DNA from: Ignavibacteriota bacterium
GTDB lineage: Bacteria; Bacteroidota; Ignavibacteria; SZUA-365
Assembly (NCBI GenBank): GCA_016218045.1
Contig: JACRFB010000022.1
Span: 1-64,000 of the forward strand
Reading direction: 5' to 3'
Length of the DNA: 64,000 nt
A program made the position numbers and the translations under genes. The notes beneath the pieces were generated by a model. That model did not search any database, was not told where the DNA came from, and was given only the letters and a program-made list of their open reading frames with translations. Positions 4,534-16,197 of the stretch are shown piece after piece; position 1 is the first letter of the stretch; each line of letters begins with the position of its first letter.

Positions 4534-4731
4534 CCTGCGAGTGTGCACGCTCCACGTGTCAGCCCTTCGCGTATATCCTGCAACCGCTGATGGTACATGC
4601 CTGCGCGGCATATAAGCAACGCCACTGCACACCACAGGGTCGCGTAGTGACTCCATGAGTGCATGACGGGGCGTCTGGGGTTCACGTGGTGACATCTGGA
4701 GGCGGAGTCCGCACATCACGCCCTTCAACCC

Positions 4732-5185
4732 GGACAATCGGTCACGCAACACTTAGGCTCAGAGTTCTGCGGCGGACAAAGCGTCGTTCAACGCGGACAA
4801 TCGGTACTGTAACTCTGCGAAACATCGTACTGCCCCGGACAAAACGTTGTTCCACCCGGACAATCGGTAATTCAACTCTGCGGAACAGCGTACTGCGGCG
4901 GACAAAACGTTGTTCAACGCGGACAATGGGTCACCCAACTCTGCGGAACAGCGTACTGCAGTGGACAAAACGTAGTTCAACGCGGACAATCGGAACTGTA
5001 ACTCTGCGGAACAGTGTACTGCGGCAGACAAAACGTCGTTCAACGTGGACAATCGGTACTGCAACACTGCGGAACAGCGTACCGCTGCGGACAAAACGTT
5101 GTTCAACGCGTACAACCGGTCATGCAACTCTGCGGAACAGCGTTCTGAGGCGGACGAAACGTTGATCGCAGCCGACAAACGGTGC
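4732..5185. repeat. 63-bp tandem repeat, about seven copies
   Basis: The landmark GGACAATCGG (with variants) recurs at 4732, 4795, 4858, 4921, 4984, 5047, 5110 and 5173, an exact 63-base period. Copies differ by scattered substitutions. Because 63 is divisible by three, several frames stay open on both strands. On the minus strand each unit reads as three heptads (LSALNNV / LSAAVRC / SAELQYR), which looks like coiled coil; one plus-strand frame is broken by a TAA in the third copy. The 200 bases before it (4534-4731) hold nothing I recognise. Confidence 0.85.
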
Positions 5186-5227
5186 TTCCAACCGGTGAAA
5201 AAGTGTTTCGCGACGGACAAAAAGTAC

Positions 5228-5668
5228 TCCGCGAGTTCAGCGCATGTCTTTGCGAGTTCGTTGCCTGTCGTCGCGAGATCGGTGTCACTCATTGCAAGTG
5301 CCGTCACCCTCGTTGCAAGTTCGATCACAGTGCTCCGCGAGTTCGTCGCCATAGCTCTGAGTTCGGTCACAGTCACGGTAAACCGGTCACGGCACTTTGC
5401 GAGTTCAGTCACTATCGCTGCAAGTTCGGTCACAGCACTCTGCGAGTTCAGTCACCATCATTGCAAGTTCAGTCACCATCGTTGCGAGTTCAGTCACCAT
5501 CGTTGCAAGTTCGGTCACAGTGTCCTGCGAGTTCGTGTCGACGCTCTCAACATGTGCGCGCACTCTGCGAGTTCAGTCACCATCGTTGCAAGTTCAGTCA
5601 CCATCGTTGCAAGTGCGGTCACAGTACCCTGCAAGTTCGTCACCATAGTCTGCGAGATCAGTCACAGT
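5228..5668. repeat. 21-bp degenerate tandem repeat (VTELA heptads on minus strand)
   Basis: Units like agttcagtcaccatcgttgc recur every 21 bases, cleanest at 5440-5520 and 5570-5630 and more degenerate upstream. On the minus strand the unit reads V-T-E-L-A-T-M, a heptad suggesting coiled coil, and the frame runs on into the 63-bp array (63 = 3 x 21). Some units are 22 bases long, which breaks the frame (for example near 5430 and 5545). Either this is a decayed long coiled-coil gene on the minus strand, or a non-coding array. Confidence 0.7.
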
Positions 5669-5811: not shown

Positions 5812-5945
5812 CGAGCCCGTGTCACCCCGAGCTTGTGTCACCCCGAGTTTGTGTCATCCCGAGTTTGTCGAGGGACGACGCGACTGCGAGATTGTGTGAC
5901 AACAACGTGGTGTCACCCCGAGCTTGTCGAGGGGCGACGTCGCAA
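5812..5945. repeat. Dispersed short repeat (GTCACCCCGAGCTTGTCGAG type)
   Basis: Three to four partial copies of gtgtcaccccgagcttgt and the variant ending gtcgaggggcgac occur here. This is the widespread 'gagc-(t/g)(t/g)(a/n)gtcga' dispersed repeat of Bacteroidota and other phyla, with ends that can pair. A sister form (gtcacgctgagcggagtcga) is found at 16012-16043 and in tandem at 54964-55288. Confidence 0.65.
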
Positions 5946-6626: not shown

Positions 6627-7181
6627 ATGTACGCACTTTATAACAAGACTGGTGAAAATGGATCAATTCAGTATCGCTTTCAAGAGGGTATATCTCTTTT
6701 TGGATGTAACAAAGGATATATTCCGTGGTTGCTTGCAAATCAACTTACAGCCGAATTGTCCGAGCCGCTGTCGTGGCATGTGAACATTGAAAATTCTCTA
6801 AAAGCTGTAGGGCAAGACAATCAGACACTTGTCATTGACTTAAAACCAAACAGCAAATTGCCAAATCTCTCACTTTATGAGGTATTGGACGTATGGGGTT
6901 ACTCAGGCTCAGGGTGGACACCTATTCTGTTTCATCATGGCGGTCTATTCATTGACGAAGACCCCATACGCTTTGACAAGAATAACTTCGTTCGCTGGTC
7001 CGCGGAAGTAGACACTCCCATTTTCTCTATGATGTACTTGCGAGGAACTGTGAAGGATGGTCGGCTTAATGGAAAGTGGACTCCGCCAGTTCCGAGTCCG
7101 ACAAATTCAGTGTTACTGTGGCCCGGGGCTTTCGAGTTTTTCTGCCAACAGGCCAAAAGGATTATCGAAAATGCGGCTTAA
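6627..7181 (+). CDS. Hypothetical protein, possible integron cassette gene
   Basis: This 184-residue protein starts at ATG 6627 (in-frame TTG codons at 6597 and 6600 are alternatives). It is rich in aromatic residues ('GYIPWLLANQ', 'LDVWGYSGSGWTPILFHHGG') with no signal peptide or transmembrane segment. I do not recognise the family. The gene is visibly more AT-rich than the chromosomal genes further right, suggesting transfer. Its stop codon TAA (7179-7181) lies inside GCTTAAC, the R'' form of an attC site, a habit of cassette genes. It shares a reading frame with the next gene, with only this stop between them. Confidence 0.55.
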   Translation: MYALYNKTGENGSIQYRFQEGISLFGCNKGYIPWLLANQLTAELSEPLSWHVNIENSLKAVGQDNQTLVIDLKPNSKLPNLSLYEVLDVWGYSGSGWTPILFHHGGLFIDEDPIRFDKNNFVRWSAEVDTPIFSMMYLRGTVKDGRLNGKWTPPVPSPTNSVLLWPGAFEFFCQQAKRIIENAA

Positions 7182-7248
7182 CAAGCGTCGAGTTGGACTC
7201 GCGATGTCGGAGGTTCGCACTGCACTACCTCTGCGCGGCGCGCTTGGG
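7176..7248 (+). other. Possible degenerate attC site
   Basis: GCTTAAC (RYYYAAC consensus) at 7176-7182 contains the stop codon of the preceding gene. It is followed by AAGCG, and about 60 bases later by CGCGCTTGGGC, which can pair with it imperfectly; the R' core would be cTTGGGC, with the first G changed. Weak on its own, but two better sites lie at 10936 and 11297. Confidence 0.25.
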
Positions 7249-7307
7249 CAGCATTATTTCCCTTCACGATTGATCTTGAGCAATCACCCTTTACAATTCT
7301 CCGCGGC

Positions 7308-8066
7308 ATGGGTCACGAACGACTAGGTGCACTTCCTCGCTCGCGTCCTTGGCGGGACGTGGTTGCCCGTATGGGATCTTTCACCTCTGATGGAAGTGTT
7401 GAGTCTATAGCCAAGGCCGTAGTGGAGAACGTACAGCTTCGAATCCCAGACCTTCCTAGAGACAGAGGGGTACAAGCATCGTTTGCATTCCTTGTCGCAC
7501 TTGCAGTCGCGGCTCGCTCGGATGAGCCTTCTGATGTCCACGCGTGGGAGATTTGGCTCCCTAAGGGAGGCACTCCGCTCGAACTTAGTCTAGAACTCCG
7601 ACGGTGGATTCAAGCGCAGGGAGGCCAAGGGGAGTACTCTGAGTTGGCGACACAGGCGGCTACGGATGCACTCGTAGATTGGTATGAGAGAAATCCATCT
7701 TCGCAGCACGATCTCTTTGTCAACACTCCCGAACCCTACCAACCATGGCGCGGGGTGCGAGATGGAAGAGGCTTCAGCGAGTTAGCGCATGCCTATTTCG
7801 CAGCATTCACGAGACGTTATCTTGACTATTTCCTGGACCGGGAGGCATCCGCGGTCATCCCGACTATTGGGGAGCGCGAGCGGTTCAATAACGGTGTCGC
7901 TTTGCACTCGGCGGAGACAGCGAAGATCACGCAGTCATTCGCGGCAGGCTGGTTTAACGGGCGAACCAAGGAGGGGCTACCCACACTGAAGGAGATTCAA
8001 GACTTTCTCGGAGTTGCTTTCAGGAAGATCCGGGAAGAGCTTCTAAGGGAGCGGGACGCAGTATGA
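7308..8066 (+). CDS. Unknown partner of the QueC-nuclease fusion (possibly QatB-like)
   Basis: The 252-residue soluble protein is mainly helical by appearance. ATG 7308 is the first in-frame start after the previous gene's stop and gives Met-Gly at the N-terminus; ATG 7371 would also give Met-Gly. After 'RSRPWRDVVARMGSFTSDGS' comes a helical body with 'FAAFTRRYLDYFLDRE' and 'FNNGVALHSAETAKI'. The stop overlaps the next start (ATGATG), so the two are translationally coupled and probably act together. The arrangement of a basic Trp-containing stretch followed by '(S/T)xGSxxS' faintly recalls QatB of the Qat antiphage system, but the similarity is too weak to name it. Confident as a gene; function unknown. 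Confidence 0.7.
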   Translation: MGHERLGALPRSRPWRDVVARMGSFTSDGSVESIAKAVVENVQLRIPDLPRDRGVQASFAFLVALAVAARSDEPSDVHAWEIWLPKGGTPLELSLELRRWIQAQGGQGEYSELATQAATDALVDWYERNPSSQHDLFVNTPEPYQPWRGVRDGRGFSELAHAYFAAFTRRYLDYFLDREASAVIPTIGERERFNNGVALHSAETAKITQSFAAGWFNGRTKEGLPTLKEIQDFLGVAFRKIREELLRERDAV

Positions 8067-10033
8067 TGGACGTGGCTCCCCTCCGTATATTCCTTTGCAA
8101 TGGCGCATCGCTCAGTTCTACAGGCGGCGATGCGCAGGTGCTCGAATATCGCGATGGCCCGAATCGGAATCTCAGCCTCGGGCTTCCAAGCCTTGTGCGG
8201 TCTGTATGGCACCTCCCGGATCGTCTATTGGATCTCCTCGAGATCGTGTCATTCGTTCACGCTGGTGACCGACTTGTACACCGGGGGAGGCAAGATGCTG
8301 TCGTGTTTCACGCGTGGGCCCGCCGGTTCCTCTATCGCGTGAAGGTACGTGACTTCGACTTTTGGTCGCAGCCTGCAGTAGGAACGGCGCTGGCGGTGGC
8401 GTTGACATTCATGACCGGAGACGCCGAGTATCAATTTGAGTTCGAGCCAGGTCATAAGACGCCTGCTGCGGACCTCTTCGACCGAGAGAAGGCTTTACCA
8501 CCAGCGGACAACGAAGTTCGCGTCGCACTCTTTTCGGGCGGTCTAGATTCGCTCGTTGGTACACTCGATCTACTTAGCTTTGCTGAAGGGCACGGCGTGT
8601 ATCTTGTGAGCCACGCGTCAAATCCAGGAGCCAAGAAGACGCAGCGTGGGCTCATTAAACGGCTGCAAAATGAATTCCCTTCGCGGGTTTACCAATACCT
8701 CTTCGAGTCTCGCCTACGCGGTATCAAGGCACGAGACGAGACGCAACGGTCCCGTTCGCTCCTTTTTTGCTCTATCGCGTTCGCGGTCTCCTATGTTGCG
8801 GGATCAGGGCATATCCACCTCTTCGAGAACGGTATTACGGGGATCAACTTCCCTAGACGCCAGTATCTTATCAACGCCAGGGCGAGCAGGACCACGCACC
8901 CTAAGACTATTTCCCTCTTGGAAGATCTATTCTCCCTTGTTGCAGAGAGGGACATTAATATTCTGAATCCTCTACTGCGTCTCACAAAAACCGATGTGGT
9001 CAGACGTCTCAGAGATCACAGGCTGGCCGAGCTATACCCGAGTACAGTCTCGTGCGGCGTGACACGAGGGGCGCAGGGTGCGCGTAAACATTGCGGCATT
9101 TGTAACCAATGTGTGGACCGCCGGTTTGCGGCTTACGCGGCAGGAATAGGTGACTACGACGGAGGCACCGATTACGTCTACGATTTCGTAACAGAGGGGC
9201 TTGAGGAGAACAGACAGATAAAATCGCTGGTGGACTTTTTATGGCAGGCAGATCAGTTTCGAGAAGCGTCGCCGGCCGAGTTCTTCCGCGCGCACGTGAA
9301 CGATATCGTGGATCTCGTTGGGCACTTGCCGGGAACGACAGATCCGCACGGATCCGACACAACAATTGCTTTACACGAGTTGTGCAAACGACACGGGGAG
9401 CAGGTTCGTCAGGGGTACCTAGCGATGGAGGACGAACGGCGAACCCGCGGATTGCATGCTCCGACCCTTTCTCCAAGCACCATCGTCAGTCCAGGCGGGC
9501 GCTACGATTGTTCGTTTGACCCGGACGAGATGGTCGAGCGCCTCAGCCGTATCCCAATGGGGACGAAGTGCGCAAAAGCGTACGAAGAATATATGGAGGA
9601 AACGCTCCAGCTTATCTTTGAGCCTGACTTGACTACGTTGAAGCGGCAGGTTCGGAATTTCGACGGAACCGAGATAATCGACGTGACGATGGGCATCCGT
9701 GCCGAGAGTGGTTTCTGGCGTCACGTCGCAACCAAATATGGCAACACTCTCATTCCCGTGGAGCTAAAGAATAAGGCGAAGCTCAAGAACGAAGACGTAT
9801 CTCAGGCTGGTGGAAGGTGCTCAGTGCACAGAGGGCAATTCGTGCTTGTTTTCACCCGAAACATGGAGGAGCGCGACTATCAGCGGCTGCGGAAACCAAT
9901 GAGCGACGGGAAGATGATTGCAGTCTTGTGCGATTCGCATTTGAAGAAAATGCTCCTAGCTAAAGCAGCCGGTCACAGCCCGGGAGACATTGTGAATGAT
10001 CGGGTACGAGAACTTGCCGAGCTTTTCCCGTAG
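8063..10033 (+). CDS. QueC-like PP-loop ATPase fused to a PD-(D/E)xK nuclease-like domain
   Basis: The product has 656 residues. Residues 1-150 are an uncharacterised N-terminal region. Residues 150-370 are QueC-like: the PP-loop 'LFSGGLDSLVG' (156-166) and a zinc site of Cys331, Cys344, Cys347 and Cys350 ('HCGICNQC'), both features of 7-cyano-7-deazaguanine synthase. After a linker, residues 500-656 look like a PD-(D/E)xK nuclease: Asp540 in 'EIIDVTM', Glu567 and Lys569 in 'IPVELKNK', then Gln581. Standalone QueC is about 220-240 residues, so this is no ordinary queuosine enzyme, and no queD/E/F lies nearby. QueC relatives occur in Qat and type IV CBASS defence. The coupled upstream gene and the surrounding remnants of mobile elements point to antiphage defence. 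Domain calls are by motif; the role is inferred. Confidence 0.8.
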   Translation: MMDVAPLRIFLCNGASLSSTGGDAQVLEYRDGPNRNLSLGLPSLVRSVWHLPDRLLDLLEIVSFVHAGDRLVHRGRQDAVVFHAWARRFLYRVKVRDFDFWSQPAVGTALAVALTFMTGDAEYQFEFEPGHKTPAADLFDREKALPPADNEVRVALFSGGLDSLVGTLDLLSFAEGHGVYLVSHASNPGAKKTQRGLIKRLQNEFPSRVYQYLFESRLRGIKARDETQRSRSLLFCSIAFAVSYVAGSGHIHLFENGITGINFPRRQYLINARASRTTHPKTISLLEDLFSLVAERDINILNPLLRLTKTDVVRRLRDHRLAELYPSTVSCGVTRGAQGARKHCGICNQCVDRRFAAYAAGIGDYDGGTDYVYDFVTEGLEENRQIKSLVDFLWQADQFREASPAEFFRAHVNDIVDLVGHLPGTTDPHGSDTTIALHELCKRHGEQVRQGYLAMEDERRTRGLHAPTLSPSTIVSPGGRYDCSFDPDEMVERLSRIPMGTKCAKAYEEYMEETLQLIFEPDLTTLKRQVRNFDGTEIIDVTMGIRAESGFWRHVATKYGNTLIPVELKNKAKLKNEDVSQAGGRCSVHRGQFVLVFTRNMEERDYQRLRKPMSDGKMIAVLCDSHLKKMLLAKAAGHSPGDIVNDRVRELAELFP

Positions 10034-10156
10034 TCAACAGGGTCAATACTCAGGTTTTCGTCTGGGCACACGGATTACCGGTATGCCTCGTAACACTCCC
10101 TGAGTTCAAGAATCTTGTGCAACGGGGCAACGAAGAAATTCCGTATCCTAGAGCCT

Positions 10157-10429
10157 ATGACGTACACACGATTGACAAAAACTGAACGCGAACATATTGG
10201 GGCTGGTCTGGCTGAGGGCAAAGACCCAATGGAAATCGCCAACGAGCTGGGACGTCATCCGAGTAGTATCAGCCGGGAGATACGGCGTAATTGCGTGAAA
10301 CAGGAGCGATATTCGGTATTACGAGCGCTAGAGCGGAGTGAGTCATTGGCTGGTTCCAAGCATTCGGGTGGCAAACTCGAAAAGAAACCCCTTCTTCGGG
10401 ATATCGTGGGAGAGGGTTCCTACCATTGA
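10157..10429 (+). pseudogene. IS30-family transposase, N-terminal fragment
   Basis: This 90-residue frame has the IS30 helix-turn-helix: 'LTKTEREHIGAGLAEGKD', then 'IANELGRHPSSISREIRRN', followed by 'YSVLRALER' and 'GGKLEKKPLLRDIV'. The family then continues with 'WSPEQIA' and a DDE domain, neither of which is present; the frame ends in an unrelated tail. It is most likely a truncated transposase. A free-standing HTH regulator is less likely. No inverted repeats or target duplication were found. The 200 bases after it hold nothing recognisable. Confidence 0.7.
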
Positions 10430-10647: not shown

Positions 10648-10941
10648 ATGGCCCTCCAAATCATATTCAAAACGATTCCCGCGGAACTTCTTGTGCCGTA
10701 TGCACACCGCGAGCTGAGTCGTTTGCGAGATTGTGTAGCCAAGTGCTCTACAAAGGAGCAGTTCCTTGAGTATTCAGATGCGGAGCACAATGCAAGGACG
10801 CTAGAGCACCTGAGGGAATTGATCGCGAGAGCAAAGACAATTCTCGGCAAAGTCGATTTCAAACTTGCGGACGAAATTCTCGGCGGATTATCAGAGGACT
10901 TTCCTGAACTCGACTCACCGCGTTATCATGGGAAGAGCTAA
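10648..10941 (+). CDS. Hypothetical protein, integron cassette gene
   Basis: This 97-residue, mostly helical protein ('YAHRELSRLRDCV', 'LEHLRELIARAKTIL') has no recognised family. Support for it being real comes from context: its stop codon TAA (10939-10941) lies within AGCTAAC, the R'' core of the attC-like site at 10936-11001, the standard arrangement for cassette genes. No good ribosome site precedes ATG 10648, which is also common in cassettes. Confidence 0.5.
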   Translation: MALQIIFKTIPAELLVPYAHRELSRLRDCVAKCSTKEQFLEYSDAEHNARTLEHLRELIARAKTILGKVDFKLADEILGGLSEDFPELDSPRYHGKS

Positions 10942-11001
10942 CAAATAGCTACACCGGACTTGGCTAAACGGCGGGCCACGCCGGTGAATATGGCGTTAGG
11001 C
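10936..11001 (+). other. attC-like recombination site
   Basis: AGCTAAC at one end and GTTAGGC (GTTRRRY consensus) at the other enclose a 66-base stretch with the inner inverted repeat CACCGG...CCGGTG. CTAAC pairs with GTTAG at the outside. This is the layout of an integron attC site (R''-L''...L'-R'), with two mismatches to the RYYYAAC form. It ends the cassette carrying the 97-residue gene and begins the one carrying hicB. Confidence 0.6.
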
Positions 11002-11042
11002 GCCATAGAGAAATGTTCGTATCGTTACATTCAGGAAGTACT

Positions 11043-11231
11043 ATGAAGTACACGATAGAGACTGAGCAGGAAAATAATGGGAGGTGGATCGCCGAGATCG
11101 TCGAAATACCCGGAGTCATGAAGTATGGTGAAACCCGGGAAGAAGCGATCAGCCAAGCAGAGGCCCTCGCATTGAGAGTGATGGCGGATCAAATCGAGAA
11201 TGGTGAATGTGCGGCAACACCATGGAGATGA
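11043..11231 (+). CDS. hicB: HicB-type antitoxin, C-terminally altered
   Basis: From ATG 11043, behind AGGAAG, the 62-residue product has the HicB fold: 'YTIETEQENNGRWIAEI' then 'IPGVMKYGETREEAISQAEAL' and 'LRVMADQIENGE'. These antitoxins are usually slightly longer and sit next to HicA, a small mRNA interferase. Here the last residues (CAATPWR) are not HicB-like because the sequence jumps into the 3' end of hicA in another frame. The fold may still form, but the partner is destroyed, so the module is probably not a working toxin-antitoxin pair. Confidence 0.8.
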   Translation: MKYTIETEQENNGRWIAEIVEIPGVMKYGETREEAISQAEALALRVMADQIENGECAATPWR

Positions 11232-11295: not shown

Positions 11296-11296
11296 T

Positions 11297-11356
11297 GCCT
11301 AACACGTGCGTAGATCTAACTCGCTCCGCTCGCGGGTTACACGTTAACCGTTGGCC
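11297..11356 (+). other. attC-like recombination site, degenerate R'
   Basis: A perfect R'' core GCCTAAC lies at 11297-11303, one base after the hicA stop. TAAC-A-CGTG then pairs with CACGTTA downstream with an unpaired A, and TAACTCGC faces GCGGGTTA. Extrahelical bases of this kind are typical of attC. The R' end reads GTTGGCC (11350-11356), which is GTTAGGC with the A lost and one extra base. Confidence 0.5.
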
Positions 11357-15414: not shown

Positions 15415-15858
15415 ATGACCATAGAGCAACACATAGGAGAACACATCGAGGAATACATCTCGATACAGCCCGAACAGAAGCGCGGCGACATGCAGCGCCT
15501 GCACGACACGATTCTCGCCCTTCTGCCCGAAGGCAGATTGTGGTATGACGACGGCACGGATGCACAGGGGAAAGTCGTATGTAATCCAAGCATCGGCTAC
15601 GGACTTCAGTCGCTGGTGTACGCCAACGGCAAAACGAAGGACTTCTATCAAATCGGCCTCAGCGCCATCTCCACGGGAATCTCCGTCTACATCCTCGGAC
15701 TCAGGGATAAAAAACACCTCGTCAACACCTACGCCAACGCCATCGGCAAAGCGCGTGTGACAGGATACTGTATCACCTTCAAGAAACTCGCGGATATCAA
15801 CATCGATGTACTCGTCTCCGCGATGCGGTATGGAATAGCGGAGACGCGGAGCAGCTAG
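15415..15858 (+). CDS. DUF1801-like protein
   Basis: The 147-residue cytoplasmic protein starts at ATG 15415 with AAAGGA upstream. An N-terminal helical region ('PEQKRGDMQRLHDTILALLP') leads to a beta-rich core with 'KTKDFYQIGLSA' and a C-terminal helix, a layout like the YdhG/DUF1801 family. The biochemical role of the family is not known. It stands alone between a hairpin and a repeat block. Confidence 0.6.
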   Translation: MTIEQHIGEHIEEYISIQPEQKRGDMQRLHDTILALLPEGRLWYDDGTDAQGKVVCNPSIGYGLQSLVYANGKTKDFYQIGLSAISTGISVYILGLRDKKHLVNTYANAIGKARVTGYCITFKKLADINIDVLVSAMRYGIAETRSS

Positions 15859-16140
15859 GCGGGAGAGCGGGAGAGCGGGAGAGCGGGACAGCGGGAGAGC
15901 GGCCGAAGGCCGCAAGAAAAAAACCTCCTTTCCTCCGTTCCTCCTGTGTGATTTTTTTCGCGCTACACCTCACCATCGGACAGCGGGAGAGCGGGAGCGG
16001 AACAACGAAATAGTGTCTCGCTGAGCGGAGTCGAAGCGCGACGGGACAGCGGGAGAGCGGGACAGCGGGACAGCGGGAGAGCGGCCGAAGGCCGCAAGAA
16101 AAAACCTCCGTTCCTCCTGTGTGATTTATTTTCGCGCCAC
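15859..16140. repeat. Composite repeat: 8-nt arrays, hairpin and CCTCC blocks, two copies
   Basis: This is the same element as at 332-541. Arrays of gcgggaga/gcgggaca units are followed at 15899 and at 16081 by GCGGCC-GAA-GGCCGC, an A-run, CCTCC motifs and TGTGTGAT. The second copy lacks 8 bases of the pyrimidine block. Between them (15995-16043) lies one copy of the gcggaacaac...gctgagcggagtcga unit that is tandemly repeated at 54964. The element ends about 60 bases before the aspS promoter. Confidence 0.85.
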
Positions 16141-16197
16141 ACCTCACCATCGGACCGCGGGAAGGGGGCGGTGCTTCTCCGTCTGCGGCCGTTTCGG

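Follow-up and report, generated by a model that had tools for sequence, protein, structure and literature searches.

Among the known systems closest to the locus described here are two QueC-based immune systems. QatB and QatC alone were reported to protect against some phages, with QatA and QatD dispensable for those, and this defence required the ATP loop and the TxT site of QatC, in which both threonines (T278/T280) are essential, and the N-terminal glycine (glycine 2) of QatB, which starts with MGTS (PMC13279940). QatC was reported not to make preQ0 (PMC13329287). In type IV CBASS, a deazaguanine acid was reported to be conjugated to glycine 2 of the CD-NTase (PMC11996544 and PMC13279940). 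The available sections of the QueC-family immunity papers mention neither a two-gene form nor nuclease or TIR fusions to QatC.

The window, which is the whole 64,000-nucleotide stretch of Ignavibacteriota DNA that was analysed, contains a pair of overlapping genes with the following layout.

7308..8066, + strand: first gene of the pair, partner protein of 252 aa, MGH family
8063..10033, + strand: second gene of the pair, QatC-like enzyme of 656 aa with a fused C-terminal nuclease-like domain
8063..8066, + strand: ATGA start/stop overlap of 4 nt between the partner gene and the enzyme gene

Both ORFs and their ATGA coupling were found as the earlier sequence-only reading had described them, and all residues that it had named in the 656-aa protein (SGGLDS, four cysteines, D540, E567 and K569) were present. 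Across the 72 contigs (4.77 Mb) of the host genome, one match to the 656-aa protein was obtained at the threshold used. A full-length relative, 88% identical to the large protein, was found in a MAG of another class of the same phylum (Rhodothermia). Comparison of the two copies gave dN/dS values of 0.14 for the partner, 0.13 for the QatC core, and 0.17 for the C-terminal part. All domains of the window pair are under purifying selection (0.13-0.17), and the C-terminal domain is constrained like the rest. Because of the QueC/QatC profile matches, the 88%-identical copy, and the low dN/dS, the pair is not a chance product.

Three motifs were located in the core of the large protein.

8534..8551, + strand: SGGLDS ATP pyrophosphate loop, residues 158-163 (SGGxDS in 107/107 family members)
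8885..8902, + strand: SRTTHP active-site segment, residues 275-280, a QatC-type replacement of the Tyr-x-Asp substrate site of QueC and Cap9
9053..9124, + strand: Zn site C331...C344-x2-C347-x2-C350-x-DRR

The 656-aa protein was matched by Pfam QueC (E 5.6e-8), by NCBIfam QatC (NF041925) over residues 54-385 (E 5.5e-52, 177 bits, under the curated cut-off of 280), and by PADLOC QatC (E 4.2e-46). The NCBIfam QatC model was also matched by all 57 family representatives, with a best E of 5.6e-66. In the AlphaFold2 model, core residues 1-465 were confident. In Foldseek, this core was closest to the QatC chain of the QatB-QatC structure (9y01_B, E 2.1e-20, TM 0.75, 472 aligned columns), followed by QueC and Cap9 (9nto_B, E 2.4e-4). 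Profile and fold comparisons placed both the N- and C-terminal extensions of QatC in the window enzyme alongside the QueC core. At the deazaguanine-reading segment, nearly all of the 107 family members carried [S/T]RTTHP, and a motif check of the window enzyme and these members found no YPDC/Y-x-D substrate motif of QueC. By its profile match, its QatC-type motif, and its best fold match, this is a QatC-like protein and not a housekeeping QueC or queuosine enzyme. The QueC family had been recognised correctly from the sequence; the label QueC-like is replaced by QatC-like.

The SGGLDS loop, the four cysteines and the Pfam QueC match would also suit a stray or paralogous QueC of the queuosine pathway. 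We consider this extremely improbable, since the QatC match is far closer (5.5e-52), the QueC substrate motif is missing, the host genome has its own QueC and QueE, both on another contig, and the enzyme is always paired with an MGH partner. No queuosine gene lies beside the window pair, as had been noticed before. A queuosine function for the large protein was rejected on the basis of its motif, its context, and the separate host QueC and QueE.

The remaining part of the large protein was assigned as follows.

9530..10030, + strand: C-terminal PD-(D/E)xK-like domain, residues ~490-656 (tblastn, catalytic-residue alignment, PADLOC PDC-M36A 5.8e-11)
9680..9682, + strand: putative catalytic Asp540, conserved in five near or remote homologues
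9761..9769, + strand: putative catalytic Glu567-Leu-Lys569, ExKN (ExK then Asn) kept in all aligned homologues

A tblastn search with this domain returned an Agrobacterium fabrum plasmid protein annotated as 'restriction endonuclease' (E 1e-4), along with other, larger plasmid proteins. D540 and E567-x-K569 aligned with the five homologues, one of them annotated as a restriction endonuclease. Pfam and PDB-sequence searches with the domain gave no match, and neither did a scan of viral contigs with the domain alone. AlphaFold2 modelled residues 466-656 poorly (mean pLDDT about 40-50, mostly below 60), so the PD-(D/E)xK-like assignment rests on sequence comparison. The proposed joining of a QueC-family enzyme to a PD-(D/E)xK-type domain was thus borne out by profile matches and alignment, and the structure prediction that was to examine the domain ended at low confidence.

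The partner protein is marked by its N-terminus.

7308..7328, + strand: N-terminal MGHERLG motif with glycine at position 2; [M/V/L]GH start in 84/87 readable non-redundant partners

The choice of start codons for the partners favoured GH, and the 84/87 count far exceeds what such a choice explains. In 49 aligned partners, chosen for [M/V/L]GH, M1, G2 and H3 were invariant, and R5, L9 and W15 were nearly so. The AlphaFold2 model of the partner (pLDDT 89) was all-helical, with residues 1-4 disordered. Membership of a known family was rejected, with no match in Pfam or NCBIfam and no significant match in PADLOC or among PDB sequences. A CD-NTase was likewise not matched in Pfam, NCBIfam, or PADLOC. 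Profile comparison with QatB by hhalign was weak, although colinear (probability 6%, E 0.006), and Foldseek returned no match of the partner model at E<=1e-3. The L9-P10...W15 segment is similar to Pro and Trp residues that are conserved in the tail of QatB, and the MGH start recalls the essential N-terminal glycine of QatB (MGTS) and of CBASS CD-NTases (MGGS). The partner had been called unplaceable. This holds for family matches; by analogy with QatB, it can be placed through its N-terminal Met-Gly, disordered tail, helical body, and overlapping upstream gene.

Homologous pairs were collected by a GTDB genome scan with the partner, which gave 34 loci from many phyla, and by an IMG/VR scan with the enzyme, which gave 80 more. 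An initial viral scan with only a single window protein returned no match. A Leptospira noguchii plasmid also carries the pair. About 96 non-redundant pairs were collected; the partner was immediately upstream of the enzyme in 93/96, and the other three loci were cut by a contig end. The coupled partner noted in the window is thus an obligatory one. The 4-nt overlap seen in the window recurred in 50/93 relatives. Pairing in the IMG/VR loci is not a selection effect because those loci were found through the enzyme alone.

In the tree, the pair clade was set apart from the classical MGTS-type QatC of qatABCD by a branch with support of 100/99, and it split into clade A (24 representatives, including the window) and clade B (33 representatives). 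The C-termini of 33 clade-A proteins comprised 19 DpnII/MboI-type nucleases, two of the window type, one TIR domain, 10 tails that were short and either HTH-like or unassigned (some of them cut), and a single tail of another kind. The PDH...E[AST]K[YF] motif was intact in 19/33 of them. Pfam DpnII-MboI REase was matched in 15/57 representatives, and PADLOC Aga_Helical-REase in 5/57 members. PADLOC ThsB matched a single member (4.8e-64), which has to be L036, the protein with the TIR domain. This Candidatus Poribacteria protein (L036 7001-9729) is QatC-like and ends in a TIR domain (TIR_2, E 1.9e-14). It was sister to the nuclease-bearing L035 with support of 100/93, and an HTH-like Ignavibacteria group was also nested among nuclease bearers. 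Therefore, the enzyme and partner stayed constant as a module while the domains attached to it were exchanged, and the fused C-terminal domain is interchangeable between the DpnII/MboI-type nuclease, the window nuclease type, TIR, and HTH/winged-helix. The fused nuclease is present here as first proposed, but as one of several exchangeable domains and not as a fixed part.

Clade-B tails were mostly winged-helix-like or undefined, with Trans_reg_C at E 1.1e-6 in L107. In over half of the non-redundant relatives (clade B and Ignavibacteria), the tail is HTH-like or undefined and not a toxin-like effector. When clade-B neighbourhoods were examined for a conserved third gene that could be the effector, no clear candidate emerged; the recurring genes were all mobile-element-like, the clearest being a large serine recombinase. 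On the Proteobacteria-like contigs of this clade (L070-L147), pairs recurred near this recombinase and other mobile-element-like genes. A separate arrangement was observed in the window's own phylum (G231, L030 5680-8498), where a 311-aa nuclease-like D..DAK protein, a 188-aa MGTSVSQRSPKTTMW-start protein, and a 452-aa QatC were encoded. The nuclease-like gene stands apart, upstream of the gene for the 188-aa MGTS protein, and matched Pfam FokI only at E 0.28. In this three-gene variant, what the window protein combines in one chain is encoded in trans.

The pair was compared with the described systems. With qatABCD it shares a QatC-type core with both extensions, SGGxDS, the Zn site and [S/T]RTTHP, and a helical partner gene just upstream whose product starts with Met-Gly. 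However, the partner starts with MGH and QatB with MGTS, and QatB homology of the partner rests on the weak profile match. In addition, the QatC-like enzyme of the pair carries a fused effector- or DNA-binding-type domain of ~120-300 aa, and the pairs form a separate clade (100/99), with 177 bits against the NCBIfam cut-off of 280. QatA (KAP ATPase) and QatD (TatD nuclease) genes were present beside classical QatC in the loci compared, and neither was found beside the window pair or in the loci inspected one gene at a time. The Cap9-CdnD couple of type IV CBASS likewise joins an enzyme of the QueC fold to a partner that exposes its N-terminal glycine (MGGS there, MGH here), whereas the window pair is without a CD-NTase or Cap10, its active site is without the deazaguanine-binding Tyr/Asp, and its effector-like domain is fused and not signalled by a cyclic nucleotide. 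Comparable PD-(D/E)xK and TIR domains act as interchangeable effectors in Thoeris and in short pAgo systems (Aga REase), but the sensor/activator of the pair is the QatC-like enzyme with its MGH partner and not Argonaute/APAZ or ThsA. With queuosine QueC, the family shares the fold, SGGxDS, and the Cys4 zinc site, and it differs in the absence of the YPDC substrate motif, in its long extensions, and in its location outside queuosine operons. Since a QatC-like enzyme is combined with a QatB-analogous partner, the pair is a variant of QueC-based immunity and not an unrelated system, with a fair chance of deserving its own system name. Its candidacy as an undescribed system stands to the extent that no description of it was found in the open literature (open PMC papers); novelty unrelated to known systems does not.

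Mobility was evident at and around the window pair.

7273..10035, + strand: mobile block common to the window and the Rhodothermia MAG (blastn against L025, 87% DNA identity)
10935..11003, + strand: attC-like site of a remnant cassette array, AGCTAACAAAT...GGCGTTAGGC
11296-11355: attC-like site
near 7178-7249: degenerate attC-like site
10115-10429: truncated IS30-like transposase (start)
about 11043-11231: HicB-like antitoxin ORF

DNA identity with the Rhodothermia locus (L025 of G219) covered an exact 2.76-kb block and ended at both edges of the pair. There, the pair sits between attC sites 8018-8143 and 10946-11071, two of eight attC sites, and the integron integrase is on another contig of that MAG. 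The housekeeping QueC and QueE of the two hosts were only 37-38% identical. The pair is one integron cassette that moved between bacterial classes. The entries below the shared block were read from the letters, 10935-11003 and 11296-11355 by eye; the attC-like sites of the window depend on this reading because the attC covariance model R1, built from the Rhodothermia array and strong there, gave no match in the window. The IS remnant, the TA-like ORF, and the attC-like sites noted before were thus found again by reading, but the model did not recover the attC sites. Up to 11300, the HicB-like ORF is followed by the apparent end of a HicA-like protein.

Neighbours of the pair in genome-derived loci were also searched. 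At E<=1e-20, 121 pair neighbours matched 205 PADLOC models and a small control of 121 proteins from distant stretches of the host genomes matched 22, which only indicates enrichment because the counts are of redundant models and not of genes. The suggested survey of homologues therefore found both the conserved pairing (93/96) and defence-rich surroundings. Relatives also adjoin integrase or recombinase genes. Downstream of the pair in three Ignavibacteria loci (L026, L027, and L055) lie genes for an excisionase-like protein, a tyrosine integrase, and a primase-like protein of ~780 aa; this is probably a satellite-like integrative element. In G031, a classical qat locus was observed on the same contig as the pair.

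The pair very probably serves in anti-phage defence. By a slight balance of probability, we take it to be a mobile two-gene anti-phage unit of the QueC-based kind, in which the N-terminal-glycine partner licenses the fused effector. A two-gene unit is plausible because QatBC alone can defend against some phages. The QatC-like half would bind the small helical partner and spend ATP to act on the glycine that the partner exposes at its N-terminus once methionine has been removed (MGH). This change would probably be the attachment of an acyl group derived from a carboxylate, for example a 7-deazaguanine-type acid. The complex of partner and enzyme would sense infection or be licensed by it, and this state would activate the enzyme's fused C-terminal domain. 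In the window, this effector would be a PD-(D/E)xK nuclease cutting phage DNA or all cellular DNA; in relatives, the module is joined instead to a winged-helix domain, a TIR domain, or a nuclease of the DpnII/MboI type. Modification of the MGH partner is suggested because the same ingredients occur in QatBC and type IV CBASS, and gating of the effector is suggested because the fused domains are interchangeable; we infer the modification, the switch, DNA cleavage, and defence itself from these features. A base- or protein-modifying step tied to cleavage had been proposed, and the MGH start and the QatC-type site make the partner N-terminus the likelier target, by analogy, rather than bases.

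A deazaguanine substrate may not be general because several MAGs hosting the pair matched neither QueE nor QueC, a count confounded by MAG incompleteness and diverse QueE types. Six Bacteroidota pair hosts (G395, G402-G404, G406, and G407) had a QueE match and no QueC at E<=1e-15. A broader reading, which is tentative and to us rather doubtful, is a separate and widespread immune system, in which the QueC-fold enzyme and the N-terminal-glycine partner would form a universal activation module for plug-in fused effectors (nucleases, TIR) or DNA-binding domains, licensed by covalent N-terminal modification and not by a cyclic nucleotide.

Other functions were weighed against the licensed-effector unit. 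One alternative is a restriction-like defence that has no switch: foreign DNA would be directly recognised and cleaved by the C-terminal domain and the partner, with the QatC half providing a regulatory or self-protection step, possibly a base modification marking host DNA. The relationship of the C-terminal domain to an annotated restriction endonuclease, the DpnII-MboI domains of relatives, and the winged-helix/HTH domains of clade B, which suggest that the C-terminus often meets DNA, are consistent with this. However, the pair has no accompanying gene for a transglycosylase or for DNA modification, the TIR domain of L036 cannot cut DNA, and the active site is of the QatC type and not of the base-making QueC type, with QatC reported to make no preQ0 (PMC13329287). 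We consider such direct restriction, together with this role of the QatC half, unlikely.

The TIR and nuclease domains are also toxin-like, and the two overlapping genes in order, their carriage on an integron cassette, and the integrase or recombinase genes adjoining relatives would suit a toxin-antitoxin or stabilising cassette for integron arrays and prophages, with the C-terminal toxin restrained by the upstream partner. A simple pair of that kind does not need a strictly conserved ATP loop, Zn site, and partner MGH, and HTH-like tails commonly replace toxins among members, which makes it quite unlikely. The winged-helix-like ends of many clade-B tails, including Trans_reg_C (1.1e-6) in L107, could instead indicate a regulatory module in which the C-terminal domain would bring the partner or the enzyme to DNA, and most of the nuclease-like domains would be derivatives that bind DNA. 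This is very unlikely given that the catalytic ExK is intact in 19/19 DpnII-type and 2/2 window-type members, that a TIR domain occurs in the family, and that the window C-terminus is under purifying selection.

The pair clade bears on the reaction of QatC and on how QatB modification stops phage. It provides natural versions of a QatBC-like core fused to a recognisable effector (DpnII/MboI-type, other PD-(D/E)xK, or TIR), so the effector readout, DNA cleavage or NAD+ loss, is directly assayable and could be related to the ATP site and to the glycine at the N-terminus. QueC-type immunity, with its defence role inferred, moves from one bacterial class to another in the form of a single integron cassette, and domain swapping across phyla suggests how it reaches its target.

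Repeats were observed elsewhere in the window. A 63-bp tandem repeat array at 4650-5280 (7 overlapping register copies, 61-83% alike) has long ORFs on both strands, probably as a by-product. Behind it, related repeats with 21/42-bp spacing extend to about 5660. Short interspersed repeats were located at 5812-5939 and 15830-16160, consisting of CCCGAGCTTGTCGAGG-type repeats and GCGGGAGA 8-mers with a 173-bp-spaced duplicate.
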